DNA of 64,000 bases from Chlorobiaceae bacterium (GCA_013334965.1 JAAXWO010000002.1:1-64000), one strand, 5' to 3'; counted from the stretch's first letter, positions 43,899 through 55,991 are shown. Translations and numbers: made by a program. Notes: generated from the letters alone by a model not told the origin.

Positions 43899-43973
43899 TA
43901 TGTTTCTGATCCTATTAAAGACTTTCCGGCATGTTTTTCGAAGACCGGACAATATCAATGAATAAAACAATCG

Positions 43974-44417
43974 ATGGTTCAAAATAGTATCAAGGGACCG
44001 ATGGAACTCTTCATCGATCGCTGCAGGAAAAACGGGCTGAAAGTCACGCCACAGCGCCTGGCAATTTACAAGGTGCTCATCGAGTCAGCCGATCATCCCT
44101 CTGCAGACAGCGTCTACAGGAAAATAACGGAAGAGTATCCTACCATCTCGTTCGATACCGTCAACAGGACGTTGCTGACCTTTGCTGAAATCGGCGTGAT
44201 CGCCATGGTCGAATCCTATTCGGTCGCACGCAGGTTCGATTCCCAAACCGGACGCCATCACCACCTGCACTGCGTGAAATGCGGACTTATCACCGACTTC
44301 TGCGATGCGTCGCTCGACGAAGTCAAGGTGCCTGAACAGATTGAAAAACTTTATGACGTACTTGGCAAGCGAGTAGTAATCAGCGGCATCTGCCCTGACT
44401 GCACCAAAACGGCCTGA
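43974..44417 (+). CDS. Fur-family transcriptional regulator
   Basis: A 147-residue metal-dependent repressor. The N-terminal winged helix ([24 protein letters not shown]) is followed by a dimerisation domain with HHHLHC. The structural zinc cysteine pairs are CVKC and CPDC. Whether it senses iron (Fur), peroxide (PerR) or zinc (Zur) cannot be settled; the His/Asp pattern is closest to Fur/PerR. A possible operator is upstream, consistent with autoregulation. It lies 183 bp before the molybdenum cofactor genes. Confidence 0.88.
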
Positions 44418-44599
44418 TTCTCACGATCATCTCCTCCTCCCTTCCGCTTCCACGCATAACAGGCCGGAGGTTTTCGGCAACCCGAAGGCAAACAACCGGA
44501 TTATCGATATATTACACCCTCTCCGGCAGCACGGCGCACATCGCGCCGGAAGCTTGCTGTGGAATTCGTGCACAAAGTCAAGCCACCAACACTCACAGG
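44418..44599. other. Leader before the Moco genes
   Basis: A 182-bp gap with one notable GC-rich hairpin (TCCGGC to GCCGGA enclosing GGCGC-ACATC-GCGCC) near 44523-44554. I compared it by eye with the Moco riboswitch and could not match the conserved core, so no riboswitch is called. Confidence 0.4.
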
Positions 44600-45538
44600 A
44601 TGGAATTCACTCACCTTGACGACAACGGATCGGTCTGCATGGTCGACGTTTCAGGAAAACCTCCGACCCGTCGCGAAGCGCAGGCCACCGGCTGCATCAT
44701 CATGATGCCAGAAACCATTGCGCTGCTCGGCAGGGACGCGCTGCCAAAAGGCAATGTGCTGGCCGCGGCAAAAATCGCCGGTATACAGGCTGCGAAACAG
44801 GCATCGAACCTCATTCCCCTTTGCCACCAGCTCAACCTTTCATGGGTAGAGATCCTCTTCGAAACGCTGCCTGACAGGATCGGCATCAAGGCCATCGTAA
44901 AGACCAGGGAGTCAACCGGAGTCGAAATGGAGGCTCTTGCCGCCGTATCGGTAACGGCCCTGACGATCTACGACATGTGCAAGGCGGTCGACAAAACGAT
45001 GGAGATCACCGGCATAAGGCTGGAAAAAAAGAGCGGGGGCAAACAGGGCGCCTCGACGGGATACCAGCCCAGAACTTCCATACTGGTGATGTCGGACTCA
45101 ATTTCACGCGGCACCGGCATCGACCGTTCAGGTTCGCTCCTGCGTGAAGGACTTGAAGCCGCTGGGTGCCCGGTCGAACAGCTTGCCGTAATTGCCGACG
45201 AACCTGCTGAAATAACGTCGACGATAGACGCATGGGTCGCCAACGGCATCGAACTGATCGTCACCTCCGGAGGTACCGGGCTCGGGCCGAGGGATATGAC
45301 GATCGAAGCCATCCTGCCGAAGTTCTCCCGGAGGCTTCACGGCGTCGAACAGGCCCTGTTCCAGTGGGGACAGGGAAAAACCAGGACGGCAATGCTTTCG
45401 AGGCTCGCTGCCGGGGTGATCGGAAAAACCATGGTCATCTGCCTGCCGGGAAGCCCCGGTGCGGCAGGCGATGCGATCGAGGTTCTCATCCCGGGAATTT
45501 TTCATGCGTTTTCAATGCTTGACGGGGAGGGACATTAA
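44600..45538 (+). CDS. moaC: MoaC-MoaB fusion (cyclic pyranopterin phosphate synthase / molybdopterin adenylyltransferase)
   Basis: A 312-residue fusion. Residues 1-145 are MoaC: LIPLCHQL (residues 71-78), VKTRESTGVEMEALAAVSVTALTIYDMCKAVDK contains the conserved Lys/Asp; it makes cPMP from the MoaA product. From about residue 158 a MoaB/MogA domain follows (ILVMSDSISRG, TSGGTGLGPRD, PGSPGA), which adenylates molybdopterin for Mo insertion. The joining of an early and a late step in one chain is uncommon but known. It is the first gene of the Moco block, 2 bp from moeA. Confidence 0.92.
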   Translation: MEFTHLDDNGSVCMVDVSGKPPTRREAQATGCIIMMPETIALLGRDALPKGNVLAAAKIAGIQAAKQASNLIPLCHQLNLSWVEILFETLPDRIGIKAIVKTRESTGVEMEALAAVSVTALTIYDMCKAVDKTMEITGIRLEKKSGGKQGASTGYQPRTSILVMSDSISRGTGIDRSGSLLREGLEAAGCPVEQLAVIADEPAEITSTIDAWVANGIELIVTSGGTGLGPRDMTIEAILPKFSRRLHGVEQALFQWGQGKTRTAMLSRLAAGVIGKTMVICLPGSPGAAGDAIEVLIPGIFHAFSMLDGEGH

Positions 45539-45540
45539 AG

Positions 45541-46776
45541 ATGATCACTGTTCAGGAGGCCCATCGCATCATCCAGGAATCGATCAGGCCTGAAGCCCGC
45601 ACCTGCCGCCTGCCGCTTGATCAATTGACGGGATGGATAATCGCGGAAGACCTTCATGCAGGCTTCCCCATGCCCCGCTTCACCAACGCGGCCATGGACG
45701 GGTTCGCCGTTATCATCGACGACATTTCAGGGACATCGGAGAGTGCGCCTCGTTGCCTGACGGTTTCGCAGGAGATAGCGGCCGGAGCTCAGTCCACATT
45801 GCAGGTCGTACAGGGAAACTGCGCCCGTATCATGACCGGGGCACCGATGCCGGAAGGAGCCGACACGGTCGTACCCTTCGAAGAGACCAGCGGGTTGGAC
45901 GGTGAGATCGGCGGGATTGTCGAGTTCTACAAAGCGCCCTCTCAAGGAGCCAACATCCGCCATATCGGTGAAGAGGTTTCCGCCGGAGAGCTCCTCATCG
46001 CAAAAGGCACGCGAATCACTCCCGCAGAGATAGCCCTTATCGCTGCATTCGGCATCGATTCGGCAATCGTGTTTCGCCGACCGAAGGTCGCGCTCATCAC
46101 CGTCGGCGACGAGCTCTGCCGGCCGGGAGAAACTGCAGGAGAGCTTGCCATATACAACAGCAACCGGGCGATGCTCGAAGCGTGCGTCCAGGCATCCGGA
46201 GCTGAACTCTCAAGTTCCAGGCAGCTTCCGGACGACCCGCAGCTCATTCGGGAAGCCATTGAAACGGCACTCGACCAATGCGATCTTCTGGTGACCGCCG
46301 GAGGCATTTCGAGCGGCAAGTACGATTACATCCGTGAAATTCTCATAGAGCTCGGCGTCACGGAAAAGTTCTGGAAAGTCGCCCAGAAACCGGGCAAACC
46401 GCTCTATTTCGGTACGGCACCCTCCGGCTCCCCGGTGTTTTCACTGCCAGGCAACCCGGTCTCGGCCCTCGTCTGTTTCCTTGAATACTGCACACCGGCA
46501 CTCTGCAGACTTCAGGAGGCTGAAATACCATCGAAGTTCGAAGCCTGCATCGACGAGCCCTACCCGGCCGACAGGAAGCGCCACCGCTTCCTTTTCGGAA
46601 ACCTCCGTGTCGACAGCGCGACGCTACACTGCAGCCTCTCGCCTAAAACCGAATCCCACATGCTCACCGCCGCTTCCGGGGCAAACTGCCTGATCGAATC
46701 TCCGGCCGCATCAGGAACCCTGCCGGCAGGCAGCCTGGTCACCTGTCGCCTGCTGCCATGGGCAACCATATCCTGA
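45541..46776 (+). CDS. moeA: Molybdopterin molybdenumtransferase
   Basis: MoeA inserts molybdate into adenylated molybdopterin. The 411 residues show domain features MPRFTNAAMDGFAV, IMTGAPMPEGADTVVPFE, TVGDELCRPG, and GGISSGKYDYI near residue 258, plus FSLPGNPVSALVCF. It starts 2 bp after the MoaC-MoaB gene and is followed 13 bp later by the mobBA fusion, so these form one operon. Confidence 0.95.
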   Translation: MITVQEAHRIIQESIRPEARTCRLPLDQLTGWIIAEDLHAGFPMPRFTNAAMDGFAVIIDDISGTSESAPRCLTVSQEIAAGAQSTLQVVQGNCARIMTGAPMPEGADTVVPFEETSGLDGEIGGIVEFYKAPSQGANIRHIGEEVSAGELLIAKGTRITPAEIALIAAFGIDSAIVFRRPKVALITVGDELCRPGETAGELAIYNSNRAMLEACVQASGAELSSSRQLPDDPQLIREAIETALDQCDLLVTAGGISSGKYDYIREILIELGVTEKFWKVAQKPGKPLYFGTAPSGSPVFSLPGNPVSALVCFLEYCTPALCRLQEAEIPSKFEACIDEPYPADRKRHRFLFGNLRVDSATLHCSLSPKTESHMLTAASGANCLIESPAASGTLPAGSLVTCRLLPWATIS

Positions 46777-46789
46777 AAGAGCCAAACCC

Positions 46790-47911
46790 ATGTTCCATCC
46801 ATTCGAAATAGCCTTCTGCGGGCTCTCCGGCTCCGGAAAAACGACTCTCGCGACCGAAGTGATCCGCCATTTCCGGCTGAAGGGTGATGAACCTGCCTAT
46901 TACAAGCACGGCTGCCACCATTTCGATATCGACCGCGAAGGCAAGGACTCATTCCTTGCCCGTCAGGCTGGAGCCGCCTTGGTCATGATCTCCGATCCGG
47001 GAAAGGAAGCGATCATAGCCGAAGCTCCAGGAACGCTTTCGAACGCGTCAACGCTCCTTTCCTGCGATATGCTCATGATCGAGGGACTGAAGGAGCTGAA
47101 GATCCCGAAGCTGCTTCTCGTCGATGCCGGGCGGGCAATATTGCCGCTTATGGAAAACGGTACGGTGAGCCAGGTGCTTGGCCTCGTTCACGACGGCAAC
47201 TCAGATGGCCTCGACAATTACGGATTGCCTCTCTTCTGTCGCGACGACGTACCGGGAATCGCTGCCTTCATTGAACGTTGCCTTGCGGATCGCGCCGCCG
47301 AAGTGCCCTTGAACGGGCTCGTCCTTGCCGGCGGACTCAGTTCGAGAATGGGCACCGACAAAGCCCTGCTGAGCTATCACCCCGAAAACCAGCTGGTTAC
47401 GACGGCTGCCCTGCTGTCCTGCACTTGCGGCGAGGTATTCATTTCATGCAGGCAGGAACAGGCTGCAACTTACTGCACGTTCGGCTATCCGGTGATCACC
47501 GACTCCTATCTCGACATGGGACCCATGGGAGGACTCCTTTCAGCGCAACGGCACGCTCCGGATGCGGCATGGCTGGTTGCCGCCTGCGACCTGCCTTTCA
47601 TCTGCGCTGATACCATCAACGCACTCCTGTCGAACCGGGATCCATTCAGGTACGCAACCGGCTTCATGTCGCCTGAATCGGGACGACCGGAACCGCTGCT
47701 CACGATCTACGAACCGAAATCACGCCAGGCGCTCCTTCGGCAGCATTCGCTCGGAAACGATTCGCTCTCCTCGTTTCTTCAGCTTTCACGCGCTGTCTTG
47801 ATCAAACCGGTCAACCCCGGTTCAATCACCAACGTCAACGATAAAGATCAGATGGATGCAGCAAAAAAAGCCATCCATTCAAGTCGTTGTTCCCCCCGGA
47901 ATCCGGAATGA
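46790..47911 (+). CDS. mobA: MobB-MobA fusion (molybdenum cofactor guanylyltransferase)
   Basis: A 373-residue fusion. The N-terminal MobB GTPase has the P-loop GLSGSGKTT (residues 11-19) and the segment MLMIEGLKEL. From about residue 175 the MobA domain shows LAGGLSSRMGTDKALL, MGPMGGLLSA and AACDLPF. MobA adds GMP to Mo-molybdopterin to form MGD, the form used by AioA, and MobB assists. MGD synthesis directly upstream of aioBA is functionally sensible. The C-terminus is short and polar. Confidence 0.93.
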   Translation: MFHPFEIAFCGLSGSGKTTLATEVIRHFRLKGDEPAYYKHGCHHFDIDREGKDSFLARQAGAALVMISDPGKEAIIAEAPGTLSNASTLLSCDMLMIEGLKELKIPKLLLVDAGRAILPLMENGTVSQVLGLVHDGNSDGLDNYGLPLFCRDDVPGIAAFIERCLADRAAEVPLNGLVLAGGLSSRMGTDKALLSYHPENQLVTTAALLSCTCGEVFISCRQEQAATYCTFGYPVITDSYLDMGPMGGLLSAQRHAPDAAWLVAACDLPFICADTINALLSNRDPFRYATGFMSPESGRPEPLLTIYEPKSRQALLRQHSLGNDSLSSFLQLSRAVLIKPVNPGSITNVNDKDQMDAAKKAIHSSRCSPRNPE

Positions 47912-47983
47912 CACTCCATCCTGTTCGTTTACCGTCAACCTGACTCTCAGGATGAGTGTGATTTTAAGGTAATTTTAAGTTTT

Positions 47984-48008
47984 TTGACAAGCGCCTTCTT
48001 GTTATAAT
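47984..48008 (+). promoter_or_regulatory. Candidate promoter upstream of aioB
   Basis: A perfect TTGACA (47984-47989) is followed by TATAAT (48003-48008) after only 13 bp, shorter than the 16-18 bp optimum. Such spacing often signals need for an activator. It lies 175 bp before aioB, and the 271-bp gap holds no other feature beyond a poly-T stretch near 48055. Confidence 0.35.
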
Positions 48009-48182
48009 AAAGCTGATGCGATCCTGGATCTGCATTGCCATCTGTACCGGCTCACCTTTTTTTTAAGATTAGTTCACGATAACCGGCATATCCCGGTTGA
48101 TCGCCTGGAATCGATTTCACGTCATTTCGTTTTTCGATCGCAATCTGCTCGATTATTCACAATTGTTAATCAGGGAGAACCC

Positions 48183-48671
48183 ATGTCAATCAGTCGCAGA
48201 AAATTCCTGCAGTCGTCAACCGCAGGTATGGCTCTGGCGCTTTTCGGCCTTTCCGGGAAGGCAGAAAGCGCAAGCGGTAAAAAGTACCCTTCTCTCAGAA
48301 TCGGGAACATCCGCGAGCTTAAGGCCGGCGAACCGGTTCAGTTCAACTATCCGGACAGTACATCTCCATGTACCCTGGTCATGCTGAATGAGACAGCTAT
48401 CGGCGGTGTAGGCACACTCAGGAATGTGGTTGCATTTTCTTCGCTCTGCCCGCACATGGGTTGCCCTGTAAACTACAAAAGCGGTCGATTTGTCTGTGGA
48501 TGCCACTACTCCATGTTCGACGCCGCAAAAAATGGCCAGACTTACCAGGGGCTTGCGTCACAGTGGCTGGCCCAGGTCACGCTGCGGTTTGACAAAGCCA
48601 GCGGCAATATCTATGCCGAAGGGGTCGAAGGCCTTCTCTACGGAAGAATCAGCAACCTGAACATCAGCTAA
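48183..48671 (+). CDS. aioB: Arsenite oxidase small subunit (Rieske)
   Basis: The 162-residue AioB is the Rieske [2Fe-2S] subunit that takes electrons from AioA. A twin-arginine signal SRRKFLQ (residues 4-10) and a hydrophobic helix direct Tat export. The Rieske motifs are CPHMGC and CGCHYSMF; ligands would be Cys89, His91, Cys105 and His108, with a Cys94-Cys107 disulfide. The clear AGGGAG Shine-Dalgarno precedes the ATG. Its gene lies 12 bp before aioA. Confidence 0.93.
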   Translation: MSISRRKFLQSSTAGMALALFGLSGKAESASGKKYPSLRIGNIRELKAGEPVQFNYPDSTSPCTLVMLNETAIGGVGTLRNVVAFSSLCPHMGCPVNYKSGRFVCGCHYSMFDAAKNGQTYQGLASQWLAQVTLRFDKASGNIYAEGVEGLLYGRISNLNIS

Positions 48672-48683
48672 GGAGATACCCAT

Positions 48684-51245
48684 ATGTCATTATTCACAAG
48701 AAAAGACAGGCTGCCGATTCCGCCGAAGGATGCAGAACGTTTCACGACGGTCTGCCAGTACTGCAGCGCAGGTTGTGGTTACAATGTCTTTGTATGGCCC
48801 GTCGGCAAAAGCGGCACGGCAAAAAACAATGCGTTCGGCCTCGACCTCTCGACCCCGTCACCAATGCTCTCCGGGCACTCATATACGGAGACCATGCATA
48901 ACGTTATCACCAGGAAGAACGGCATCAAGTACAACCTTGCCATCATTCCTGCCAGGGAGTCGCGCATCAATAAAGGGGATTACTCCATCCGCGGAGGCAC
49001 CAATGCCATCGCAGCCTGGTCGGATACCGGCTATACGAAAAAACGCCTCAAACATCCTCTCCTGAAAAAAGGCGATTCGTTCGCCGCGATCTCATGGGCC
49101 GATGCCACGGAAATCATTGCAAGCCTGATCAAGTCCTCTATCGACAAATACGGTGCGGACAGCATCGCCATGAAGTTCTTCGATCATGGCAGCTCCGGCG
49201 TAGGATTCGAAGACAACTGGGCAGTAGGCAAACTGTTCCTGAGCGGCATCAGGACAAACTATCTCTCGATCCACAACAGGCCTGCCTACAACTCCGAAGT
49301 ATGGGGATCGAGGGAGCGTGGAATGCATGAGCTCAATTACGATGTCGATGATGCCAGGCTTGCAGATACGGTCGTCCTTTGGGGGGCGAACGCCTATGAA
49401 GCGGCAACGATCCTCTATACCGAGCATATCATGCCGAACCTTCAGGGAGCTTCGGTCGACGAAAAAAAGAAAGAGTTCGATGCAGGCGAACCCGCCGCTG
49501 AAGGCCGACTTATCGTCATCGATCCGAGAAAAAACGCGTCCGTCACCGTCGCCGAAGCCATTGCCAAAGAGCGCGTACTGCATATCCGTCCCAACCTGGG
49601 CACCGACTGGATCCTGGCCAACGCGATCGCACGCATCGCCTGGGAAAACGGATGGTATGACAAACTGTTCCTGGAAAAACGCACGGATCTCAAAACATTC
49701 GAAGATTACAAGACGAAATCGCTTCAGCTCTCCAGAACGCTCAATGAAGTGCTTGCCGAAGCTGAAAAGATCACTGGAGTCGGCAGGAGTGAAATGCAAC
49801 AGGCTGCAGAATGGATCGCAAAGCCCAAGGCCGGCGGATTCAGGCAGAGAACGCTGACCATATACGAAAAAGGGATCATCTGGAACATGAAGAACTATGA
49901 CCAGGTGGCAGCAATCGCCCAGCTCAACGTGCTGACCTCGAACGTCGGAAGACCGGGGACAGGATGTGGTCGTGAAGGCGGACATCAGGAGGGTTACGTC
50001 AGGCCTCCGGCTCCGACGCCGGGATCGATCTACGCAGGAGGGCCTCCGAAAAACGTCGACAAGTACCTGACCGGCGGCGGCGCCAGGATTTATTGGGTCG
50101 GAGGAACCGATCCTTACCTGTCGACGCCCAACAGCCAGTTTTTCAAAAAGGTGCTGAAAAAAAGATGCGCCACCCTGCTTGACCACATCGATGAGGGCGG
50201 CGTCCCGTCAGACCCTAAGGAGCTCATCAGGAGAGTGCTTGACGGCTTTGAAAAAACAGACGGCCTGTTCATGATCGTGCAGGACATCTACATGACCCAT
50301 ACCGGCAACGATGCCATGCTGATCCTGCCCGCAGCGGCTTGGGGCGAAGCTGCCGATACGTCGGTCAACTGCCACAGCAGGCTTCTCAGGATCTACGACA
50401 AGTTCATGGATGCTCCCGGCGAAGCCCTGCCGGACTGGAAAATCCTGTCGATGGTCGGCATCAGGCTCAGGGAGCTCTATACTGCCGCAGGCAACCAGGA
50501 GATGGCCGACCGCTTCAAGGAGATGGACTGGAAAAGCGATGAGGAGGTGTTCCTTGCCGGATCACACGAGTTCGGCAACAACAAGATACCTGAAACCGAA
50601 GAGGCAAAGCTGTCTGCTGAATGCTATAAGGGCGTGACACACCAGATCCTGAGAAAACTGGGCAACACCGGCATCCAGACACCGGTACGCGTCGATCCTG
50701 CTACCGGAGAACTTACAGGCACGAAACGACGCTACAAATACAGCTTTTCGACAAGCGACGGACTCTTCAAATGGTACGGTACAGACGCATGGAGCGGCTA
50801 TCCTGCGGAGATCGCGAAATACATCGACAACCCGACCTATCCGTTCTGGTTCACCACCGGTCGATCGCAGTTGGTCTGGCAAACCATGTATCACGACAGG
50901 CACCTGCCGGAAAAGAGCTTCGCTCTCCCATTGCCATATATCGAAGTCAATCCGGAAGATGCGACCCGACTCGGCATAAAAAGCGGTGACATGGTGGAAG
51001 TATTCAATGAAGAGGGAACAAGCGTCGCCCTGGTCTACGTCAATGATGCCTGCAAACCCGGGCTGGTCTTCGGAATCATGTACCACGCGAAAGGGTCGAT
51101 GAACCACCTGACCTCCTCCTATACCGACCCGAAAACCACCATGCCGTGGTACAAGGGCACGAAGGTGGGAATCAGGCCATACAGGGGCACCCCGGACGAA
51201 GCCATCAAAACAACAAGCCTCCTGGCGAACAACGACGTTTCCTGA
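48684..51245 (+). CDS. aioA: Arsenite oxidase large subunit
   Basis: AioA is the molybdopterin subunit that oxidises arsenite to arsenate in the periplasm, handing electrons to AioB. The 853 residues begin without a Tat signal and rely on AioB's. The CQYCSAGC motif (Cys24, Cys27, Cys31) matches the AioA three-cysteine [3Fe-4S] site in place of the usual four. Family segments such as WSDTGYTKKRLKHPL, NWAVGKLFLSG, RTLTIYEKGIIWN, GRPGTGCGREGGHQEGY and WQTMYHDRHLP are present. The strong AAGGAG Shine-Dalgarno is unlike most genes here. The gene ends in a large hairpin. It should support arsenite as an electron donor, or serve detoxification. Confidence 0.93.
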   Translation: MSLFTRKDRLPIPPKDAERFTTVCQYCSAGCGYNVFVWPVGKSGTAKNNAFGLDLSTPSPMLSGHSYTETMHNVITRKNGIKYNLAIIPARESRINKGDYSIRGGTNAIAAWSDTGYTKKRLKHPLLKKGDSFAAISWADATEIIASLIKSSIDKYGADSIAMKFFDHGSSGVGFEDNWAVGKLFLSGIRTNYLSIHNRPAYNSEVWGSRERGMHELNYDVDDARLADTVVLWGANAYEAATILYTEHIMPNLQGASVDEKKKEFDAGEPAAEGRLIVIDPRKNASVTVAEAIAKERVLHIRPNLGTDWILANAIARIAWENGWYDKLFLEKRTDLKTFEDYKTKSLQLSRTLNEVLAEAEKITGVGRSEMQQAAEWIAKPKAGGFRQRTLTIYEKGIIWNMKNYDQVAAIAQLNVLTSNVGRPGTGCGREGGHQEGYVRPPAPTPGSIYAGGPPKNVDKYLTGGGARIYWVGGTDPYLSTPNSQFFKKVLKKRCATLLDHIDEGGVPSDPKELIRRVLDGFEKTDGLFMIVQDIYMTHTGNDAMLILPAAAWGEAADTSVNCHSRLLRIYDKFMDAPGEALPDWKILSMVGIRLRELYTAAGNQEMADRFKEMDWKSDEEVFLAGSHEFGNNKIPETEEAKLSAECYKGVTHQILRKLGNTGIQTPVRVDPATGELTGTKRRYKYSFSTSDGLFKWYGTDAWSGYPAEIAKYIDNPTYPFWFTTGRSQLVWQTMYHDRHLPEKSFALPLPYIEVNPEDATRLGIKSGDMVEVFNEEGTSVALVYVNDACKPGLVFGIMYHAKGSMNHLTSSYTDPKTTMPWYKGTKVGIRPYRGTPDEAIKTTSLLANNDVS

Positions 51246-51261
51246 CGTTGTCCGACAATGT

Positions 51262-51310
51262 AAAATACATGATCCCCGGTGCACCATATGTGCCGGGGAT
51301 CATGTATTTT
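51262..51310 (+). terminator. Long hairpin terminator between aioA and moaA
   Basis: An 18-bp perfect stem AAAATACATGATCCCCGG / CCGGGGATCATGTATTTT encloses 13 nt. The 3' side ends in ATTTT. It would end aioBA transcription or partially attenuate it into moaA. Confidence 0.82.
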
Positions 51311-51390
51311 ATGATCACAGGAAAAGCCGAAAACAGTTGACAGACGAAACTCCCCGACCAATTCAACCACAGGAGTACGACACCCGAACC

Positions 51391-52365
51391 ATGCTCATCG
51401 ACGCTTACAACCGCACGGTGGATTATGTCCGTATTGCCGTCACCAGCGCATGTAACCTTCGCTGCGCCTATTGCCTCCGTGAAGACAACGAAGATCAGCA
51501 AAGGATCGGAAACCGGCTCAATACCGGCCAGATAGAATCGATCATCGCTCTCCTTGCAGAAATGGGCATCCGCAAAATAAGGTTCACAGGTGGAGAACCT
51601 CTTCTTCGCCGCGACATTGTCAAACTTGTCCGGTTCGCGAAACAGACCCCCGGCATAGAGGACGTCAAACTCACCACCAACGGAGTTCTGCTCGACAGGC
51701 ACCTGAAGGAACTTATCGACGCACGTCTGGACGGCATCAACCTCAGCCTGGACACCCTTGATCCCGGCAGGTTCATGGAGATCGCCCGACGCGACCATTT
51801 CACGAGGGTCCGCAAGGCGCTGGACACCCTGTTCGAAACCCCTTCGCTCAAAATCAAGATCAACACCCTTCTGCTCAGGGGGATTAACAACGACGAGATT
51901 CCAGCCTTCGTCGAACTGACGCGGGACCACGATGTGACGGTCCGGTTCATGGAGCTGCAACCCTTCGACGACAGGCAGATCTGGCGTACCGGCAGGTTCA
52001 TGGGTGCGGAGATGATCCGTGAACAGCTTTACCGTGCATATCCTGAATTGGAGCCGATCACCGGCCTCAATACGGAACACTACAGCTTCATGCTACCCGG
52101 TTGCCGGGGCTCGATCGCCATCATCCCGGCCTACTCACGAAACTTCTGCAGCCGCTGCTCGCGCCTCAGGATCACCGCTGACGGAAAGCTCATCAGCTGC
52201 CTTTACCATCAAGAGAGCATTGACCTCATGCCTGGCCTGCAGAACGACGCCGGCAAAGATGAGCTGAGAAAACAGATTCTTGACGCAGTAAGGCTGAAGC
52301 CAAAGGACGGCCTGAAAAGCGGGAACGACAATGCCGTCACGAGCATGTCGCAGATCGGTGGGTAG
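51391..52365 (+). CDS. moaA: GTP 3',8-cyclase (MoaA)
   Basis: The radical SAM enzyme for the first Moco step, making 3',8-cyclo-7,8-dihydro-GTP. The 324 residues have the N-terminal cluster motif CNLRCAYC (Cys21, Cys25, Cys28), the GGEPLLR motif, and the C-terminal second cluster CSRCSRLRI with a later Cys (LISC). The conserved C-terminal Gly-Gly tail is present (QIGG). The frame opens at a TTG 54 bp upstream, but MLIDAYNRTVDYVRI aligns best as the start. It lies after aioA and its hairpin, so it may have its own promoter. Confidence 0.94.
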   Translation: MLIDAYNRTVDYVRIAVTSACNLRCAYCLREDNEDQQRIGNRLNTGQIESIIALLAEMGIRKIRFTGGEPLLRRDIVKLVRFAKQTPGIEDVKLTTNGVLLDRHLKELIDARLDGINLSLDTLDPGRFMEIARRDHFTRVRKALDTLFETPSLKIKINTLLLRGINNDEIPAFVELTRDHDVTVRFMELQPFDDRQIWRTGRFMGAEMIREQLYRAYPELEPITGLNTEHYSFMLPGCRGSIAIIPAYSRNFCSRCSRLRITADGKLISCLYHQESIDLMPGLQNDAGKDELRKQILDAVRLKPKDGLKSGNDNAVTSMSQIGG

Positions 52366-52774
52366 AGGGGCTTGAAGATTCTGGATGTTCAAGATCGCGC
52401 AGACATTATTTAGGCTTTACGGTTGAAGCGGCGCTGGATTATACCCTTTCTTCAGTTGCACCGGACTTCAATCCAACATCCTCCTGACGAGACGTTTCGA
52501 CAACCGCTGTTCATCTTCCAGTCCATGACCATGGCATGAAACAATCGGATGTGAAGATTTTGGACTGAACTCCTGATATTTTTTTGATTCCCTATCCCCG
52601 GACTGAAGTCCGGATTCCCGACAAGTCGGGAATCCGGAGGTCAAGAGGTTGAATCCCGGGCATCTGGAATGTAAGAGCTCTGAACGCCCCGAGCCTCGGC
52701 TTGTCGGAACTCGTAAATTTGGAAGATTGAAGCAGTGGGCGCCTGATGAGAAGAGAAAAATAATACCCGGCGGA
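52366..52774. other. 409-bp convergent intergenic region with palindromes
   Basis: No gene is supported. CCGGACT GA AGTCCGG (52598-52613) and CCGGATTCCCGAC AA GTCGGGAATCCGG (52610-52637) share four bases, so only one can form at a time. The region separates moaA from the convergent MOSC gene, where hairpins often help end transcription in both directions. The tail CCGAGGCTCG-like segment near 52690 echoes the same style. Confidence 0.6.
52598..52637. repeat. Two overlapping palindromes
   Basis: A 7-bp stem with a 2-nt loop and a 13-bp stem with a 2-nt loop overlap at CCGG (52610-52613). The GTCGGG core resembles the hairpin in the tRNA-Ser-associated repeats. Confidence 0.8.
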
Positions 52775-53218
52775 TCAGTGATGGACGATAAGCTGGATAT
52801 CCATGCCCGGCTTGACCTCACCGCCTTCAAGTACCTTGCAGAAAATACCTTCGCGCGGCATGATGCAGTCGCCGGTGGCGGTCTTGATCGGGCATCCGCC
52901 GTTGTGGCATGCCTTGCCGATCTGCGTGACTTCAAGCAATGCAGTTTCACCGACCTGCAAACGGTTGCCGATGCTGAGGTGAAGAAGTTCGATCCCCCTG
53001 GTCACCAGGTTCTCCCCGAACATCCCGAATTCCAGCTCGGGCAGCTTCTCACGCACCATGTCGATGCTCTCCCCGGCAAGCAGGGATACCTGGCGATGCC
53101 ACTCACCGGCATGTGCGTCCCCCTCTATTCCCCATGCCTCTCTGAGACAGGCCGATTCAACGGCACACTTGACCGTTCCCTTTTCAGCGCTGGTGCAGAC
53201 CGCTTCGACAACTCCCAT
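52775..53218 (-). CDS. MOSC-domain protein
   Basis: A 147-residue stand-alone MOSC domain, related to the C-terminus of eukaryotic Moco sulfurases and to YiiM. It has GIEGDAHAGEWHRQVSLL near residue 30, FGENLVTRGI, and IGKACHNGGCPI with the conserved cysteine. Such domains bind molybdopterin or deliver sulfur to Moco-containing enzymes. It is convergent with moaA, so it belongs to the Moco cluster by context but has its own promoter. Confidence 0.88.
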   Translation of the reverse strand: MGVVEAVCTSAEKGTVKCAVESACLREAWGIEGDAHAGEWHRQVSLLAGESIDMVREKLPELEFGMFGENLVTRGIELLHLSIGNRLQVGETALLEVTQIGKACHNGGCPIKTATGDCIMPREGIFCKVLEGGEVKPGMDIQLIVHH

Positions 53219-53290
53219 AATCAGATCGGGTAATGCATTGAGTTTTCGTAAAACTTTTTCCGGGGCAACAATTAATCCAGGGAGCTTTAA

Positions 53291-53782
53291 TCAGAGATAC
53301 CTCAGGTTGATCACGAGCTCAGTGTCGCCCTTGTCGACGGGGAAACTCGCGGAATCAAATGATGGAGGGCCGAATCTCGAACGCGGGTTATTGGAGGTGC
53401 CTACCCCCTCTTTCGGCATTCCGAGAAAGTTGCTGTCAAGCTTCCCGTTCCGGTTTTCGTCATGCTGCACGGTAACGGCCCAGGTTCCATAGGGCACATC
53501 GTTGAAGACGACCTCATGCTGGGCGCCTTCCGCCGACACGACGGTTTTCCTTACGGCAGCCTCCAGCTTTCCGGGAAACCCTTTCTTCGAATTGAACAAC
53601 GCGACCACAAGGTCACCATTGGCGCTGCGAAGGTTGAATACCTTGACGGTTATACGGCCAGTCTGCACTTTCGGCGGCACCTGCGCCTGCTGCTCCACCG
53701 GCGGCACACTCAGCTCTTCAGCCAGAACACTTCCGGTAATTGTAAAAAGAGCCAGAAAGAGCAGCATGATGACCTTCTTCAT
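53291..53782 (-). CDS. DUF2141-like exported protein
   Basis: A 163-residue protein with a signal peptide (MKKVIMLLFLALFTITG, cleavage near VLAEE), a Pro/Gln/Val-rich linker, and a beta-rich domain of about 110 residues with GRITVKVFNLRSANGDLVVALFN-type strands, DVPYGTWAVTVQHDENRNGKLD, and GPPSFDSASF. These are DUF2141 features; the function is unknown. It is downstream of a FAD enzyme and overlaps none. Confidence 0.8.
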   Translation of the reverse strand: MKKVIMLLFLALFTITGSVLAEELSVPPVEQQAQVPPKVQTGRITVKVFNLRSANGDLVVALFNSKKGFPGKLEAAVRKTVVSAEGAQHEVVFNDVPYGTWAVTVQHDENRNGKLDSNFLGMPKEGVGTSNNPRSRFGPPSFDSASFPVDKGDTELVINLRYL

Positions 53783-55406: not shown

Positions 55407-55991
55407 CTAACTCCTGCTTATCCTGTTCCTTATGCGGCTCAGGCTCTCCCGCTCCATGCCGAGGTATGAGGCCAGATGATAGAGCGGCACACGATCGAAA
55501 ATTGCTGGATCGTCCTGCATCAGGCTGAGATAACGCTCCTTACCGTCCATGAACAGAAACTTCTCCATGCGATCGGATACCAGCCCGGAAAACTGTTCCG
55601 CCATCAGACGGCCGAGCCTTTCCCAGTTTTTCGACCGGTTGTAGGCATCAAGAAGCACCTCGTGGCTGAAAGTGACGACCACGGAACGTTCAAGCGCCTG
55701 AATCGAGTACCTGCTCGGCCTCTGGTTCAGGAAGCTGCAGTATTCGGCCATGAAATCGTTCTCCTTGAAAAAGTGCGCGTTGATCTCTTTACCGTCGGAG
55801 AGATAAAACATGCGGAACACTCCTGATACCACGAATGACATTTCGCGGCAACAGTAGCCCTCCGTCAAGAGATAAGCATCCTTCCCGACGCTTTTTTCGA
55901 TCAGATGCGGCTTGAAAAAATCGAGGTCTTCCTCCGTCAGGAATTCGTAATGGCTGTTCAGCCAGGATTTGAGCTGCAATAAACCGATCAT
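55407..55991 (-). CDS. Crp/Fnr-family transcriptional regulator
   Basis: A 194-residue regulator with an N-terminal cyclic-nucleotide-binding-like domain (MSFVVSGVFRMFY, FFKENDFMAEYCSF) and a C-terminal region with a helix-turn-helix (PLYHLASYLGMERESLSRIR). It lacks the Fnr N-terminal cysteine cluster. The effector and targets are unknown. It lies upstream of the FAD enzyme with its own leader. Confidence 0.85.
   Translation of the reverse strand: MIGLLQLKSWLNSHYEFLTEEDLDFFKPHLIEKSVGKDAYLLTEGYCCREMSFVVSGVFRMFYLSDGKEINAHFFKENDFMAEYCSFLNQRPSRYSIQALERSVVVTFSHEVLLDAYNRSKNWERLGRLMAEQFSGLVSDRMEKFLFMDGKERYLSLMQDDPAIFDRVPLYHLASYLGMERESLSRIRNRISRS

Follow-up and report, generated by a model that had tools for sequence, protein, structure and literature searches.

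The aioBA genes of the Chlorobaculum genome examined here can, with reasonable probability, be read as a genuine arsenite oxidase cassette within a molybdenum cofactor (Moco) operon, controlled at a palindrome as part of a regulon for sulfide shortage and alternative electron donors. For this locus, we infer the activity of the enzyme, the physiological signal, the direction of regulation, the electron acceptor, and the identity of the regulator. The control of aioBA in the absence of AioXSR is stated to be an open question in the available part of a published account (PMC3834237). A conserved operator offers a testable answer to it for the Chlorobiaceae and links the oxidation of arsenite to the way in which anoxygenic photosynthesis manages its electron donors and sulfur.

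Gene content of the aioBA locus

The window, i.e. the whole stretch of 64,000 nucleotides that was analysed, corresponds to positions 1-64000 of contig C6 of genome G000 (2.48 Mb; 99.7% complete). The host genus is Chlorobaculum, and the other genus in the set of family genomes is Chlorobium. A reading made from the sequence alone had described a block of Moco and arsenite oxidase genes at positions 44600-53218, and every gene named was indeed retrieved at its given coordinates with a match to NCBIfam or Pfam models. A gene for a Fur-family, PerR-like regulator (43974-44417, plus strand; PF01475, the top NCBIfam model being PerR at 114 bits, under its cut-off of 180) is followed on the same strand by a moaC/moaB fusion coding for one protein of 312 amino acids (44600-45538; NF002947 PRK03604, 439.5 bits, cut-off 285), moeA (411 amino acids; 45541-46776; Pfam MoeA_N, MoCF_biosynth, and MoeA_C over their cut-offs), and a mobB/mobA fusion coding for one protein of 373 amino acids (46790-47911; NF011059 PRK14490, 535.5 bits, cut-off 354). 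Next come aioB, coding for the Rieske subunit (162 amino acids; 48183-48671; TIGR02694, 168 bits, cut-off 95.65), aioA, coding for the arsenite oxidase large subunit (853 amino acids; 48684-51245; TIGR02693, 1085 bits, cut-off 359), and moaA (51337-52365; TIGR02666, 329 bits, cut-off 284), all on the plus strand, and a divergent gene for a MOSC-domain protein (147 amino acids; 52775-53218, minus strand; PF03473, 52 bits, cut-off 22.7). The true start of moaA is probably an ATG near 51391, about 18 codons after the listed one (TTG at 51337), since homologs align from residue 15-20 and an in-frame ATG occurs at about that position.

The MOSC gene is a conserved neighbour across the genus, with or without aio. 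A gene for a Crp-family regulator (55407-55991), which lies near the MOSC gene in some members of the genus, is a candidate regulator by proximity only. The gap between moaA and the MOSC gene contains two overlapping inverted copies of CCCGACAAGTCGGGAATCCGG (52610-52637), with no other copies in the window. With respect to translation signals, strong Shine-Dalgarno sites had been claimed for aioB and aioA, unlike most of the window. The AAGGAG of aioA held, whereas the AGGGAG of aioB provides only a four-base GGAG core. Strong sites are rare in the window, six bases being found in 4 of the 46 ORFs and no Shine-Dalgarno site at all in 23 of them, yet moeA (GGAGG) and other genes have one too.

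Identity and phylogeny of the arsenite oxidase

The closest solved structures to AioA are arsenite oxidases. Indeed, AioA matched the AioA chains of the PDB with an E value of about 1e-166 (40% identity to the solved 8cff chain), and AioB matched the AioB chains with an E value of 1.8e-35. In the alignment of AioA with 8cff, the C-x2-C-x3-C motif of the 3Fe-4S cluster (C24, C27, and C31) and S101 are invariant, Ser being the fourth position of this motif in AioA. Similarly, the arsenite-pocket residues H197, E205, R430, and H434 are invariant; the corresponding His, Glu, Arg, and His of the A. faecalis enzyme are presumably residues 195, 203, 419, and 423. AioB displays a twin-arginine signal (SRRKFLQ), a Rieske Pfam domain, and the sequences CPHMGC and CGCHYS, representing a Rieske motif with an extra cysteine pair. 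No twin-arginine motif occurs in the AioA sequence; a TAT signal on AioB but not on AioA fits export of AioA together with AioB, in line with known Aio biology.

The phylogeny that had been suggested as a check on the clade of AioA placed it among arsenite oxidases, in a Chlorobiaceae clade (support 100/100) adjoining the Thermaceae and then the Aquificaceae. AioA of Thermus and Meiothermus is the nearest outside the Chlorobiaceae (57-62% identity). Models, residues, and phylogeny hence support the prediction that aioBA encodes a genuine periplasmic arsenite oxidase. The gene aioA is present in 18 of the 86 family genomes. Within the Chlorobiaceae, the AioA tree mostly tracks the AspS species tree, with the exception of G009, a member of the window's genus whose AioA pairs with that of G040 from the other genus. 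The AioA of the window forms a group (87/82) with those of three members of the same genus (G006, G018, and G016), and not with the Chlorobium copies at the Moco site. A contig labelled Desulfobulbaceae (L102), encoding an AioA almost identical to that of the Chlorobiaceae genome G056, is probably mis-binned. The enzyme is of a known kind, and its occurrence in Chlorobium without aioXSR is already published: the available parts of two accounts describe aio in Chlorobium limicola DSM 245 and C. phaeobacteroides, patchily spread and lacking aioXSR (PMC7331816, PMC3834237).

The same layout of a molybdoenzyme with a Rieske protein is found in the iodate reductase IdrABP1P2, and, among characterised proteins, AioA is the one closest to IdrA (PMC8692401). 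Nevertheless, an iodate reductase (IdrAB) or another Aio-like oxidoreductase is a most improbable identity for the enzyme, because the di-haem cytochrome c peroxidases IdrP1/P2 that define idr clusters (PMC8692401) were not encoded among the neighbouring ORFs read (40-58 kb). In addition, the Chlorobiaceae clade is sister to the AioA of the Thermaceae, and the arsenite-pocket residues are retained.

A palindrome upstream of aioB and its targets

A predicted palindromic operator (TTCACAATTGTTAA; consensus TTAACAATTGTTAA) is located at positions 48156-48169, 13 nt 5' of the aioB ATG. The consensus was retrieved 13-24 nt 5' of the aioB ATG in 16 of the 18 aio genomes (up to three mismatches) and was degenerate before aioB in the remaining two (G016 and G018). 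The genome under study contains 20 such sites versus five for the reversed control (up to two mismatches). Across 13 genomes, 69 sites were found versus seven for the control (up to one mismatch), which is an about tenfold difference.

The recurrent targets include, on the one hand, sulfur genes, namely the MetB and DUF4395-MetY operons and the genes for sulfite reductase and a sulfate-type binding protein, and, on the other hand, redox genes, namely those for NiFe hydrogenase, TlpA, ResB, cytochrome, and cupredoxin-like proteins. Further targets are genes whose products start with the CxxCH-bearing stretch FARKYxTxCxxCH. The target lists were derived from pattern searches and fetched stretches, most names being given by sequence reading and ten proteins being checked against Pfam. 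An exact pair of palindromes, 125 bp apart, was seen on contig C19 of the genome (L222, positions 7805 and 7930) between the divergent MetB and DUF4395-MetY-response-regulator operons, a layout that recurs in other Chlorobiaceae.

Instead of a sulfur and redox operator, the palindrome might be a feature that promoters or 5' UTRs of highly expressed or exported proteins have in general. This would agree with the many targets that are periplasmic or membrane proteins, with the position of the aioB site next to the ribosome-binding region, and with a palindrome that has no assigned regulator. It is quite unlikely, given that a genome contains only about 2-9 sites (up to one mismatch), that cytoplasmic enzymes of sulfur metabolism are among the targets, and that several species have, between the divergent MetB and DUF4395-MetY operons, two sites spaced by 121-127 bp.

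Read as an operator, the palindrome would control aioBA next to its ribosome-binding site and would mark a family-wide regulon comprising genes for sulfur assimilation, hydrogenase, and periplasmic cytochromes and cupredoxins. Since such a regulon would combine aio with the synthesis of sulfur amino acids, the reduction of sulfite, hydrogenase, and periplasmic redox proteins, it may serve to respond to a shortage of sulfide by turning to other electron donors. When sulfide is scarce, the regulon would act so that the cell makes its own sulfur amino acids and draws electrons from H2, arsenite, or other donors. Tentatively, and with somewhat less than even confidence, a hitherto undescribed regulon of green sulfur bacteria is proposed, marked by TTAACAATTGTTAA, that turns on alternative donors and sulfur assimilation upon sulfide shortage. 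Searching the literature for the palindrome string yielded unrelated papers only; the switch looks undescribed.

The top candidate for binding the palindrome is a NarL/FixJ response regulator encoded with MetY in the DUF4395-MetY operon (C19:5019-5669 in the genome under study). It is present in 64 of the 86 genomes, namely in 17 of the 18 aio genomes versus 47 of the 68 others (Fisher p 0.033, without phylogenetic correction). Its absence from G001 and G002, which retain six and nine palindromes, respectively, counts against this candidate. Control of moaCB by the palindrome was also considered. Palindrome sites do occur near moaCB in G064, G031, and G082, but they were discounted, given that G064 and G031 have a response regulator of the DUF4395-MetY type immediately upstream; in the window, the moaCB leader contains no palindrome site.

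Direct repeat and other regulatory elements

A second element 5' of aioB is a direct repeat with an 11-bp period (CTTAAAATTACCTTAAAAT; 47961-47979, minus strand), which is the sole exact match in the genome and has the layout CTTAAAAT-N3-CTTAAAAT. With up to two mismatches, five sites occur in the genome, and a similar repeat precedes aioB in 8 of the 18 aio genomes, with opposite orientations. Further copies, conserved also in the sister species G007, lie 5' of a DUF4405/OmpR-regulator/kinase locus, a TlpA operon, and an outer-membrane-type gene with a CxxCH motif. With 29 sites versus nine for the reversed control, the repeat is a weaker motif than the palindrome. In the window species, aioBA is probably also controlled at this repeat, which is of the kind bound by OmpR-family regulators; an OmpR-type regulator is encoded on contig C2 of the genome (L228:6750-7430). 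The 11-bp period had led to consideration of a Pho box, a reading that was dropped because the other sites precede a two-component system, TlpA, and a cytochrome-like gene, and not phosphate genes.

In agreement with the sequence-only reading, no aioX, aioS, or aioR regulator gene was found within the stretch read. Its suggestion of regulation by the nearby Fur-family protein was not borne out, as Fur and PerR matches in the aioB upstream region of the window were equal to those in shuffled sequences (p 0.74 and 0.19), and in only one relative did p fall under 0.05. Similarly, matches to the sigma-54 (-24/-12) consensus in the 18 aioB upstream regions were no better than in shuffles, and no Rfam family, including the Moco riboswitch, reached the gathering score in 43900-53300.

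Genomic location of the aioBA genes

Downstream of aioA, a hairpin with a 24-bp stem (51260-51312, plus strand; -42.2 kcal/mol, z -7.6) represents a probable transcription terminator, none of 200 shuffles being as stable. It has no clear T tract behind it and is not listed by a consensus terminator scan, which requires a T tract. A stable hairpin 3' of aioA occurs in nearly all relatives. This strong hairpin suggests that aioBA may form a transcription unit of its own.

Because mobBA and moaA are directly joined in members of the genus without aio at the Moco site (e.g. L069), aioBA represents a cassette between them, which is self-contained in having its own upstream region and the hairpin after aioA. 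In G007, the sister species according to AspS, the site is empty, with a gap of 24 bp. The sequence-only reading had stressed that the cofactor genes sit next to the enzyme requiring the MGD form. The physical proximity holds but an exclusive coupling does not, moaCB being present in 59 of the 86 family genomes, including 42 of the 68 without aioA. In addition, a second molybdopterin enzyme is encoded on contig C5, and both facts show that the Moco genes are general and not dedicated to Aio. The Moco operon holds the only moaA and the only moaCB found in the genome; moaA is single-copy in each family genome that has it, G077 having a partial second match. Nearness to Moco genes is thus not the same as exclusive functional coupling, the cassette residing within a general cofactor operon, being absent from most relatives, and being mobile in others.

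Genomes with aioBA beside moaA comprise that of the window and most aio genomes of Chlorobium; in seven of these genomes, aioBA is enclosed by mobBA and moaA on both sides. The aioBA genes are located elsewhere, in places that look different, in G006, G018, G016, G009, and G040. In G040 (L064:9391-17773), they lie near genes that read as phoU and a molybdate transporter (modABC). When these places were treated as distinct states in a parsimony analysis on the AioA tree, an ancestral Moco site required five moves and any other root six; when they were lumped into one state, two separate arrivals at the Moco gap were preferred.

An alternative is a recent horizontal insertion of aioBA into the Moco operon of the window species, an event selected for co-expression with the cofactor genes and separate from those that filled the same gap in Chlorobium. 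The empty site of the sister species and the location of aio elsewhere in three relatives of the genus favour such an event. Likewise, parallel coupling does happen: Moco genes were not found near aio in the Thermaceae and Aquificaceae loci inspected, and occur nearby in a few Chloroflexales and gammaproteobacterial aio loci, so that this neighbourhood arose more than once, in unrelated lineages. Yet a recent insertion is rather unlikely, as the window AioA clusters with members of its genus, as described above, and mobBA and moaA on either side are those typical of the genus. Moreover, the direct repeat upstream of aioB is common to the window and to Chlorobium copies at the Moco site and missing in all five relocated copies (Fisher p 0.044). 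Because of this confinement of the repeat, and because a second chance arrival at one gap is unlikely, the Moco site is probably the ancestral aio site in the Chlorobiaceae, followed by losses and relocations.

Arsenic resistance and the role of arsenite oxidation

The absence of arsenic resistance genes claimed for the window was found to be correct for the window only. Elsewhere in the genome, on contig C13 (about 44.9-49.2 kb; L202:6873-11210), a cluster was retrieved that reads as arsR, arsC, arsD, arsA, and acr3. It lies beside genes for thioredoxin and thioredoxin reductase. An exact-core search found neither the palindrome nor the direct repeat at this cluster; hence, arsenic resistance appears to be controlled separately from aioBA. 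No ArsB was found in the genome. A broken acr3 match with in-frame stops (C2:56880-57239; L203:8880-9240) has a permease-like gene and one of the ArsR family in its vicinity.

An Aio enzyme serving detoxification together with an Acr3 exporter, and not photosynthetic electron donation, is less likely than not. The genome does contain the ars/acr3 cluster, and acr3 lies directly 5' of aioB in G056 of the genus Chlorobium (L061:16-888). Against such a role, most members of the family have Acr3-like genes whether or not they have aio, both exact motif cores are absent from the ars cluster, and the palindrome places aio in the company of redox and sulfur genes. Under the preferred role as an alternative electron donor, electrons from arsenite would enter the photosynthetic chain, a use already proposed for Chlorobium in the available part of PMC7331816.

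Comparison with known systems

As far as inspected, the AioBA loci of Thermus and Meiothermus differ from that of the window in that neither Moco genes nor the palindrome accompany aio. As far as described in the accessible part of PMC3834237, the aio island of Agrobacterium (aioXSR-aioBA-cytc2-chlE) likewise has a molybdenum cofactor gene near aioBA; unlike the proteobacterial islands treated there, the window locus is devoid of aioXSR, a sigma-54 promoter, and adjacent pst/phn or ars genes. The regulon marked by TTAACAATTGTTAA would, if true, explain the control of aioBA in bacteria without AioXSR. The closest counterparts are the AioBA of Chlorobium limicola DSM 245 and C. phaeobacteroides, similarly from green sulfur bacteria without aioXSR and with a proposed photosynthetic use (PMC3834237, PMC7331816, as far as available). 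The present analysis differs from the available parts of these accounts in giving the Moco-operon site, the hairpin, and the putative operator.
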